DNA of 5,032 nt from Desulfobacteraceae bacterium (GTDB lineage Bacteria; Desulfobacterota; Desulfobacteria; Desulfobacterales; Desulfobacteraceae), in assembly GCA_003354055.1 (NCBI GenBank), contig PIVQ01000553.1, positions 1 through 5,032 on the forward strand, given 5' to 3'. How positions within the stretch are numbered: the first letter of the stretch is position 1; every line of letters begins with the position of its first letter. The position numbers and the translations under genes were made by a program. Shown here in pieces: positions 3,081 through 4,865 of the stretch. The notes under the pieces are model-generated. The model saw nothing but the letters and a program-made list of their open reading frames with translations, was not told the origin of the DNA and made no database searches.

Positions 3081-3086
3081 AAAAAA

Positions 3087-3120
3087 TAGCGAGAACAGCT
3101 GGAGCAGCGAGAACAGTTAT
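3087..3120 (+). repeat. Left-end paired repeats (AGCGAGAACAG, two copies)
   Basis: Two direct copies of AGCGAGAACAG lie at 3088-3098 and 3106-3116, separated by 7 nt. The second is followed by TTAT. The 15-mer AGCGAGAACAGTTAT (3106-3120) occurs again, inverted, at 4772-4786. A small GCTG-GAG-CAGC hairpin (3098-3108) lies between the copies. Paired sites like this resemble recombinase binding sites at an element end, which is inference. Confidence 0.8.
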
Positions 3121-3152
3121 GGTAGGGTTTAACAGCAACATTTAGGCTACCA
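3120..3152. other. Hairpin next to the left repeats
   Basis: TGGTAG (3120-3125) pairs perfectly with CTACCA (3147-3152) around a 21-nt loop. The loop contains GGTTTAAC, an 8-mer also present inside the large structured element at 4645-4652. No T-run follows, so it is not an intrinsic terminator. It could be part of the element end. Confidence 0.4.
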
Positions 3153-3209
3153 CCACCCAGACTCGTTCAAAAATGCACACTAAGAAGAATCAGCAAGCAT
3201 GACACTGAT

Positions 3210-3234
3210 TATTAACTTTTAGTACCAGTTAATA
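3210..3234. other. AT-rich hairpin in the yaiI / TIR-like intergenic region
   Basis: TATTAACT (3210-3217) pairs with AGTTAATA (3227-3234) around a 9-nt loop. A second weak stem, ATCCTT/AAGGAT, lies at 3275-3293. Apart from these and the repeats at its left edge, the 3081-3362 gap holds no open frame or terminator that I can support. Confidence 0.35.
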
Positions 3235-3362
3235 TTCAAAGGTGTATATCGAATTTCTCAAGATTCCAATTGATATCCTTAACCACAAAGGATCAGGCGG
3301 TAGTTTTGACAGGGATAATTATGCTTAGATGTGATGTCTTGTAACTTATTTTTAATTTTTTA

Positions 3363-3977
3363 CTAAGAAGTTTTTATTTCTTCATCCATATGAACAAGTA
3401 ATTCAGGTAATGGAAGTCTGTCTATATCCTTTTTGTTAAATCCTTCCTTTGATTTTTTTTCGTATAAATTTGCATAGAAAAAATTATAGCCATCCCAAAT
3501 CGAACTGGCACTTGGGGCATCTTTCAAACCATTTTCAGCAAACCAGTTTCTAACTGAATAAACTATCTCCTCCGGTTGGCCTTCATGACATTTGCAATCA
3601 CCGAAAGACAAATCTGATAAAGCTTTCTGAGTACTATATCTTTCCTCTTCAAGAATTAAAATTACTTTTTCTCTATATTTTTTCCCAGCTTTATAATCTC
3701 TACAGCCTAAATCTAAACCTAATTCAAATGGCATATTTTGTCTAAAGTATTCGCCTATTTTTTTTGATTTTGCTCTGCTCAAATCATGAATACCATATTT
3801 TGAAGATTCAATTAGTTCCTTTATTTTGTACAACCTAACTTCACCCGAGTCACTCCTTTCTGATGCGAATCGGGGAGTAAATCCGAGCCTTTTAACAGCA
3901 TATAATAGTGCTTTCATTGAAGGATAATAAGCTTTGTCAAAAGGGCAATTGATAAAGACATTTTTTTCGAAACTCAT
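3363..3977 (-). CDS. TIR / nucleoside-deoxyribosyltransferase-like protein (204 aa)
   Basis: I do not know a name for this family, but the pattern is one I associate with uncharacterised bacterial proteins. Residues 7-14 VFINCPFD form a hydrophobic first strand with a polar loop. SERSDSGEVRLYKI (39-52) has a conserved-looking acidic and Arg cluster. KYGIHDLSR (60-68) is a strand ending in an Asp-Leu-Ser-Arg loop. NMPFELGLDLG (81-91) has a Glu followed by Leu-Gly. VILILEEERYSTQ follows at 105-117, then DCKCHEG (127-133) and VRNWF (142-146). The strand-D-L-S-R and E-L-G pattern resembles the TIR / nucleoside 2-deoxyribosyltransferase-like superfamily, whose members bind or cleave nucleotides or NAD; Glu85 would be the candidate catalytic residue. 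That fold call is inference. The start follows a weak AAGAGA, 3 nt after the DUF2188 gene's stop, so the two are probably co-translated. By rough tally the gene is about one-third G+C, much lower than aspS, which suggests transfer. Confidence 0.85.
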   Translation of the reverse strand: MSFEKNVFINCPFDKAYYPSMKALLYAVKRLGFTPRFASERSDSGEVRLYKIKELIESSKYGIHDLSRAKSKKIGEYFRQNMPFELGLDLGCRDYKAGKKYREKVILILEEERYSTQKALSDLSFGDCKCHEGQPEEIVYSVRNWFAENGLKDAPSASSIWDGYNFFYANLYEKKSKEGFNKKDIDRLPLPELLVHMDEEIKTS

Positions 3978-3980
3978 AAT

Positions 3981-4202
3981 TTATCTCTTAGTTGATTTTT
4001 CCCATTTTTGGATTGATCCGTCTTTTTTATGAATCACTACGTCACTACCAGATTTTTTTTGTCTCCGTGCATCCTTTATAGCTTCATCTTTTGTCTTATG
4101 TACTTTTGAGGCCCTTTTCGTGCCTTCCTTTTTAACAGCCCAGCCAGAATCACGCTTTACAACGTGGGTTCGTTTTGGAGTTGTGTTCTTTTTCTTAGCC
4201 AT
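3981..4202 (-). CDS. Small basic DUF2188 protein (73 aa)
   Basis: This matches the DUF2188 pattern: THVVKRDSGWAVKKEGTKRASKVHKTKDEAI (12-42, key residues HVV, GWAV and the A-S-x-V-H-x-T turn), then VVIHKKDGSIQKW (55-67). The whole protein is close to one domain. It is very basic, with 25 Lys/Arg against 8 Asp/Glu, so nucleic-acid contact is plausible but unproven. Upstream on the minus strand are AAGGGG (4217-4222) and a closer AAGGA (4205-4209). The first is 14 nt and the second only 2 nt from the ATG, so the start is reasonable but not decisive. It is the first gene of a two-gene unit, and its stop is 3 nt before the TIR-like gene. A role as partner, adaptor or antitoxin of that gene is inferred from the linkage only. 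Confidence 0.88.
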   Translation of the reverse strand: MAKKKNTTPKRTHVVKRDSGWAVKKEGTKRASKVHKTKDEAIKDARRQKKSGSDVVIHKKDGSIQKWEKSTKR

Positions 4203-4282
4203 TTTCCTTTTTCGCCCCTTATCTCTGATGAGGTAAGATAAGTTTGAATATACCTTACATATTTATATCGATAGAATCAGAT

Positions 4283-4312
4283 AATTTATCCCTATCAGAA
4301 TTGTTTTTTCAA
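4283..4312 (-). promoter_or_regulatory. Weak candidate promoter for the DUF2188/TIR-like pair
   Basis: On the minus strand, TTGAAA (4312-4307) and TAAATT (4288-4283) are 18 nt apart, about 80 nt before the DUF2188 ATG. The region is AT-rich, so chance matches are common. The -35 overlaps a small hairpin (4301-4317). This is the best pair I found, with low confidence. Confidence 0.25.
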
Positions 4313-4496
4313 AACAACCGGTAAAAATACTCAATAAACTTTAATTTAAAATTTTTCCGGCAATTAATCAAATTTCAATTTGAATTATTTCTCAAGACTA
4401 CTTGCATCCAATAAAATTCCTGTAAAGGATTTTTCTGGTAGTCTTTATGCCGCCTTCCGGCCCGCCCGCCCTCAGTGCCGAATTCAACGTTTGAAT
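4301..4496. repeat. Run of six consecutive hairpins upstream of the DUF2188 gene
   Basis: This gene-free stretch consists largely of adjacent inverted repeats. H1: TTGTTTT/AAAACAA (4301-4317, 3-nt loop). H2: CCGGTAAAAAT (4318-4328) with ATTTTTCCGG (4351-4360), one bulged T. H3: CAAATT-TC-AATTTG core with weaker extension (4362-4388). H4: AAGACTA (4394-4400) with TAGTCTT (4439-4445), enclosing a second stem from CCA at 4408 to TGG at 4438 around loop TGTAAA, with a 7-nt bulge on the left arm. H5: GCCG-CCTTC-CGGC (4449-4461). H6: ATTCAA-CGT-TTGAAT (4482-4496). None has a terminator T-run. An attachment/recombination region, an origin-like region or a structured leader RNA are all possible. Confidence 0.55.
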
Positions 4497-4539
4497 CCTA
4501 AATGATTTCTATTTTTCCTTTTGCATACCCGGTGGGTGA

Positions 4540-4678
4540 GGCAGCGGTAGGGTGAGGGGGTGGAGTGGTGTAAATTTTCGGGGCATCATGGACTGAGAGA
4601 ACCGTAAAATTTCCGCTTCGTAAGCAGTCAGGACGACTGCTGGAGGTTTAACGGAATCCCCCTCGCCCTATCGTTGCC
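4540..4678 (+). ncRNA. Candidate structured RNA with a 21-bp closing stem
   Basis: The outer stem pairs 4540-4560 with 4658-4678: all 21 positions pair, three as G-U wobbles (4544/4674, 4547/4671, 4553/4665). The inner stem pairs 4602-4614 with 4642-4654: 12 of 13 pair, two as U-G (4610/4646, 4611/4645), with one A-A mismatch. The apical hairpin is GCAGTC-AGGAC-GACTGC (4624-4640). All five wobbles become A-C mismatches on the other strand, so plus-strand RNA is favoured. A plus-strand transcript would run into the hairpin at 4788-4840. No promoter or protein is evident, and I do not recognise a known RNA family. A MITE-like DNA palindrome is the main alternative. Confidence 0.5.
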
Positions 4679-4759
4679 GGGTCTGAGTGATACCGCTTGG
4701 AGCCTATGCAGCTTAGGATCGAAAAGCAAATAATCTGTCAGCCGAAGGTTCTCCACCTG

Positions 4760-4787
4760 CTGCTCTCGCTGATAACTGTTCTCGCTA
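4760..4787 (-). repeat. Right-end paired repeats (AGCGAGAACAG, inverted)
   Basis: Read on the minus strand, TAGCGAGAACAG (4787-4776) is followed after 5 nt by AGCGAGAGCAG (4770-4760, one mismatch). This mirrors the left-end pair at 3087-3120. The outer copy with its TTAT extension matches 3106-3120 over 15 nt. It directly abuts the left arm of the minE terminator hairpin. Confidence 0.8.
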
Positions 4788-4840
4788 TAAACGCAAAAAC
4801 GCCCGGTGCCATCATGTGGAACCGGACGTTTTTGCGTTTA
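4788..4840 (-). terminator. Intrinsic terminator of minE, probably bidirectional
   Basis: A 20-position inverted repeat (4788-4807 with 4821-4840) surrounds a 13-nt loop. On the minus strand the single non-Watson-Crick position (4802/4826) is a G-U wobble, so the hairpin is fully paired. The GC core CGTCCGGT/ACCGGGCG is followed by TTTTT. It lies 25 nt past the minE stop. On the plus strand the same hairpin has one C-A mismatch but also a T5 run, so it could end transcripts from the left as well. Confidence 0.9.
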
Positions 4841-4865
4841 TCATAACACCCTCTGGGTGAACTGG

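Follow-up and report, generated by a model that had tools for sequence, protein, structure and literature searches.

The segment between yaiI and minE in the window, the whole 5,032-nt stretch of Desulfobacteraceae DNA analysed here, is probably a small palindromic intergenic repeat with a MITE- or REPIN-like layout and arms iterated in a 9-nt register, the loop of which holds about 1.6 kb of unrelated DNA (probably an acquired two-gene unit plus a copy of a structured repeat); we hold this reading with moderate confidence. The repeats at the two ends of the segment are arms of a dispersed intergenic family and are not private to a cassette. A copy of the arms with a short loop exists in another genome (G001), and a relative (G024) has neither arms nor genes between yaiI and minE. 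What appears to be one transposon would thus consist of separable layers: a palindrome family, a gene pair and a structured repeat.

Organization of the yaiI-minE interval

The window contains aspS, a 102-aa open reading frame, a dksA/traR-type gene (PF01258), yaiI (PF02639) and the end of minE (PF03776). The Pfam scan bears out the convergent arrangement of yaiI and minE that was proposed in a preliminary description of this DNA, and the interval between them is about 1.8 kb, with inverted repeats near its ends (Table 1). As described there, the yaiI stop (3080) precedes the start of the left repeat copy by 7 nt, the right copy lies directly against the stem-loop downstream of minE, and the insert holds two genes plus structured noncoding DNA. 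The stem-loop is absent from the terminator-scan output. The genes were also described as AT-rich, which holds relative to yaiI (P204 32.8% and DUF2188 38.3% versus 47.7% GC); however, the minE part is itself 39.5% GC, so only P204 and the gap at 4203-4430 (27.2%) stand out against both sides.

Table 1. Features of the segment between yaiI and minE, in window coordinates.
Feature	Position	Strand	Basis
Left arm of palindromic repeat	3086..3122	+	Sites at 3088 and 3106, spacing 18 nt; 33/34 bases identical to the G001 element
AT-rich noncoding stretch between left arm and P204	3123..3362		34.2% GC
P204, 204 aa, predicted nucleoside 2-deoxyribosyltransferase/DNPH1/TIR-like fold	3363..3977	-	AlphaFold model, fold comparison
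DUF2188 protein, 73 aa, directly upstream of P204	3981..4202	-	PF09954; PADLOC candidate PDC-S16
Copy of dispersed, structured repeat	4512..4690	+	Folds best on + strand, z -2.76 versus -0.65 on the other strand
Right arm and inner flank	4726..4791	-	Sites at 4776 and 4760, spacing 16 nt; 59/66 bases identical to the G001 element, one 9-nt gap
Stem-loop, terminator-like, downstream of minE	4787..4841		Inverted repeat I1

A YaiI match was obtained for 35 of the 86 genomes searched in one family. The nearest by YaiI, G022 (80%), keeps the order AspRS-X102-dksA-yaiI and carries different DNA past yaiI. In G024 (69%), AspRS, yaiI and minE occur in the order of the window, and the yaiI-minE gap of about 120 bp contains a stem-loop, with neither the arm repeat nor the cargo genes. 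The insert is therefore accessory relative to G024, in agreement with the empty site that the preliminary description had anticipated. The exact junction base is not placed, since the G024 intergenic DNA fails to align with the window. Comparison of the segment DNA with 291 genomes of the order gave matches in six, which exceed 41 bp only in G024 (two matches); the noncoding stretch inside the left arm matched nothing beyond short stretches in these genomes. No match was found between the segment DNA and phages, or for its parts 4430-4860 and 3081-3362 in a plasmid search.

The repeats are arms of a dispersed intergenic family

At the left end, AGCGAGAACAG occurs exactly at 3088-3098 and 3106-3116. 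The preliminary description placed this sequence twice at each end, which is correct for the left; at the right, one copy is exact (4776-4786) and the other, AGCGAGAGCAG (4760-4770), has a single mismatch. The 15-bp exact inverted match between 3106-3120 and 4772-4786 was recovered as described, together with a further one of 13 bp (3086-3098 and 4776-4788). In 3,000 trials, mononucleotide shuffling of the two end stretches never produced a shared run of 13 bp or more. The arm pair spans 1,699 bp, including a loop of 1,643 bp, and is flanked by a duplication of 2 bp.

Seven relatives together contain 11 exact copies of the 11-mer (four of the seven genomes carry it), which is near the chance level; three of these copies have a second site within 40 bp. 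The exact double motif was absent from 395 phylum genomes. A degenerate double motif was matched by 10 rows in 102 loci (379,791 bases), all of them from the places of those three paired 11-mers, and by none in the reversed sequence. The AGCGAGAACAG-like sites within arms are spaced 9, 16, 18 or 27 nt, and a reversed-sequence control for site clusters contained two clusters in 43,506 bases. Model R1 was built from six arms, taken from the window, G022 and G023, and contains no G063 or G001 sequence. It matched 11 of the 86 family genomes at E<=0.1; at least 20 of the matches lie in G063, where the best E is 3.7e-7, and two form an inverted pair in G001. Model R2, built from 25 arms including those of G063 and G001, was applied to 14 genomes at E<=0.01 and gave at least 18 matches in G063, two in G001, three in G022 and two in G023, each a minimum, and none in the other 10 among the candidates scored. 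Because at most 150 candidates were scored per genome, the counts for both models are lower bounds. Across 389 genomes of the order, strict filters left three matched at E<=0.001, namely G063, G023 and G001.

Inverted doublets in intergenic DNA amount to nine pairs, the window included. The other eight are short-loop pairs without cargo that span 63-319 bp: one in G001, one in G023 (in which one arm is a single site) and six in G063. Most of the loops have nothing in common with one another, and many arms are unpaired within the sequence read; the unit may therefore be the arm and not the palindrome. In the G001 copy, both window arms enclose an 84-bp loop, compared with 1,643 bp in the window, at a different locus. 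The two arms align with scores of 63 and 83, whereas the best scores among 300 shuffles of each were 24 and 27. In both elements one arm has 18-nt and the other 16-nt spacing, and they share 39 bp inside the right arm though their loci are unrelated; G001 is the only copy that has this inner flank in common with the window. The occurrence of the repeats without the insert in G001, and in a wider sense in all eight cargo-free pairs of three genomes, each at other loci, speaks against the earlier proposal that the repeats are the bounds of one mobile unit.

Seventeen viral contigs carry the double motif, 11 of them as tandem runs in 9-nt phase, and in no case are sites clustered on both strands; 34 viral contigs contain the 15-mer, none with a second site (up to two mismatches) within 40 bp. 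Judged by title, the literature matches listed for the motif string include no report of sulfate-reducer repeats, and those listed for Desulfobacteraceae palindromic repeats include nothing on the subject.

The preliminary description suggested looking elsewhere for a transposase with the same ends. A scan of 61 of the 82 flanking ORFs gave none with arm-type ends within the matches listed. A Y1 transposase lies near arms in G063; it was set aside as the mover of the arms because its own inverted ends, GGGGTCAGGTCTTGAAA, differ. A TA duplication of the IS630 type at the window was dropped after the flanks of the arm pairs were checked for duplications. At one G063 locus (L298; G063:C1:1523500-1535000), a large RHS-type gene and two copies of a Y1-transposase gene are enclosed by a palindrome (1217-1350) and a half copy (about 10057-10154); of the two Y1 copies, the second is truncated and abuts the half palindrome. 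The alignment of the palindrome copies does not stop at their end but continues in the flank downstream, which makes local duplication and transposition equally likely at this locus.

The structured DNA is a separate repeat

The structured DNA within the loop is a separate dispersed repeat that is also found without arms. It is about 150-180 nt long and multicopy in five relatives, with copies at L134, L139, L144, L125, L160 and other loci, and a direct search, in which up to nine candidates were scored per genome, located it in six of the 86 family genomes and in many contexts. An alignment of twelve copies folds to 46 pairs, 22 of which have two-sided changes (strong covariation). Rfam gave no family at the cut-off and one sub-threshold match in each of two scans, and an integron attC was dropped as an identity for the repeat after inspection of the alignment by eye. 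The two G024 matches to the segment are 78% identical to window positions 4539-4682. The G024 copies read share the end ...ATGACCCTG; two of the G024 repeat loci carry DDE_Tnp_1_assoc, one of them also DDE_Tnp_1, and the repeat sits inside this DDE insertion sequence, which we take to be ISAs1. The G022 copies examined are intergenic, with one transposase-like neighbour (L169), as judged from ORF starts. Elsewhere in G022 (L193/L233, G022:C187), an arm pair adjoins DNA that by eye resembles the G024 insertion-sequence end, followed by a structured-repeat copy; on this reading the arm family and the structured repeat occur close together at least twice.

The gene pair

DUF2188 matches its Pfam family with 65.7 bits (cut-off 22). 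At the cut-offs applied, neither Pfam nor PADLOC assigned P204 to a family. The 73-aa protein matches PADLOC PDC-S16; the libraries scanned, however, name the small protein only and not P204, and 'PDC-S16' is unmentioned in the literature searched. Of 2,437 candidates, 2,303 are P204 homologues at E<=0.001 (best 74% identity), and the few that were named include Bacteroidota and Balneolaceae. It was matched in two of 395 phylum genomes and in 17 plasmid records, in none of the viral contigs and phage records, and in none of the arm-bearing loci tested (tblastn E<=1e-3).

The adjacency of DUF2188 and P204 is kept in both distant genomes (L106 and L107), and three of the four plasmid records opened have a small CDS directly upstream of the P204 homologue, a putative counterpart of DUF2188. 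In a Sphingomonas aliaeris plasmid (L185), the P204 homologue and its small upstream gene lie about 1.3 kb from Mu/TniB/TniQ-type transposition genes. The pair in G230 (L106) is near a REase_MTES_1575 gene. Behind the pair come a 21-bp inverted repeat without mismatches and an attC-like imperfect hairpin, and the whole stretch, 3345-4182 of this locus, may be an integron cassette. DUF2188 genes at two further loci (L236, G022:C261; L237, G002:C542) have no P204-like neighbour by the ORF lists, which suggests that DUF2188 may have other partners.

The AlphaFold model of P204 (36 sequences; pLDDT 88.8, pTM 0.87) is predicted to resemble DNPH1, NDT and TIR domains among the best 1,000 chains of Foldseek, where absence from that set excludes no fold. 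By its conserved residues, P204 may have N-glycosidase activity. The identity across distant groups together with the low GC3 (24.4% versus 53.5% in yaiI) points to horizontal transfer, by which the gene pair was probably acquired. We infer that the pair probably acts in phage defence. It is a widespread, uncharacterised pair with a predicted NDT/TIR-like fold.

Origin of the segment

In the simplest account, the palindrome would have come first, at a permissive site, and other DNA (the gene pair and the structured repeat) would then have entered its loop by nested accumulation. No uninterrupted palindrome was seen at yaiI-minE.

The preliminary description instead took the segment for a mobile insertion cassette, in which the arms would be recombinase-bound ends, moved together with the cargo by a recombinase acting in trans. 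On such a view, the G001 element would be a miniature form. Such cassettes are published (PMC5444012, from the part of that paper available), and the reading keeps weight because the window and G001, at different loci, share both arm types and the inner flank. We nevertheless consider it unlikely: duplications are absent at eight of the nine arm pairs and 2 bp only in the window, no second cargo-bearing pair occurs among those found, and the Y1 transposase near the G063 arms has ends of its own. The arms could also be gene-end or RNA-level signals, one for each convergent gene, with the cargo merely between them. Eight of 28 arms, the window left arm included, start within 6 nt of a same-strand stop codon, and terminator-like sequence follows the arms of L259 and L267 by eye. 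However, the orientation is inconsistent (among mechanically called ORFs, the nearest upstream one is on the same strand for 14 of the 28 arms, on the opposite strand for 10 and not called for four), and signals of this kind fit poorly with an inner flank common to unrelated loci, which makes this reading quite improbable.

That the gene pair is an integron-type cassette at a secondary site is the most improbable of these readings. It draws on the attC-like imperfect hairpin, noted by eye at about 4126-4182 after the pair in G230, for which z is -1.62 and 14 of 200 shuffles are as good; no attC-like site was seen by eye in the window, and the integrase is absent among the four L106 ORFs scanned. 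A bolder extension of the palindrome reading is that arm palindromes are a new kind of landing site, in which DNA enters the loop between asymmetric 18-nt and 16-nt arms and arm pairs collect accessory genes. We regard it as very doubtful; if true, the defence-like pair of the window would be one captured insert and the RHS/Y1 region of G063, which terminates at a half palindrome, another, and palindromes that collect cargo would offer a simple, testable route for defence genes into chromosomes. For the favoured reading, an interrupted palindromic repeat, the interest lies in the unusual iterated-arm design of the family, for which no mover was found among the ORFs scanned.

Comparison with known repeat systems

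The family resembles REPINs and REP doublets with RAYT transposases, as far as the available parts of the sources describe them (PMC3116915, PMC3733652), in its inverted pairs of short intergenic units and in the occurrence of singlets and doublets. DNA inserted between REP dimer partners, and REPs as targets of insertion sequences, are on record in the part of PMC3733652 available. Unlike the REPs of these sources, the arm is a set of direct repeats with an own stem of at least 6 in none of 25 arms; the tags GTAG/CTAC lie within 10 nt of two of 25 arms and CGTC/GACG of none, and the ends of the Y1 transposase found beside arms in G063 are different. Bacterial MITEs, as presented in the same part of PMC3733652, are likewise short, noncoding and dispersed, with inverted repeats at both ends. 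In contrast to them, eight of the nine pairs described here have no target duplication, the loops are mostly unrelated between copies, and the scan of 61 of the 82 flanking ORFs revealed no parent element within the matches listed. Mobile insertion cassettes (PMC5444012, in the portion available) share with the window passenger genes between inverted ends and no transposase, whereas ends of the window type also occur singly and around short, unrelated loops.
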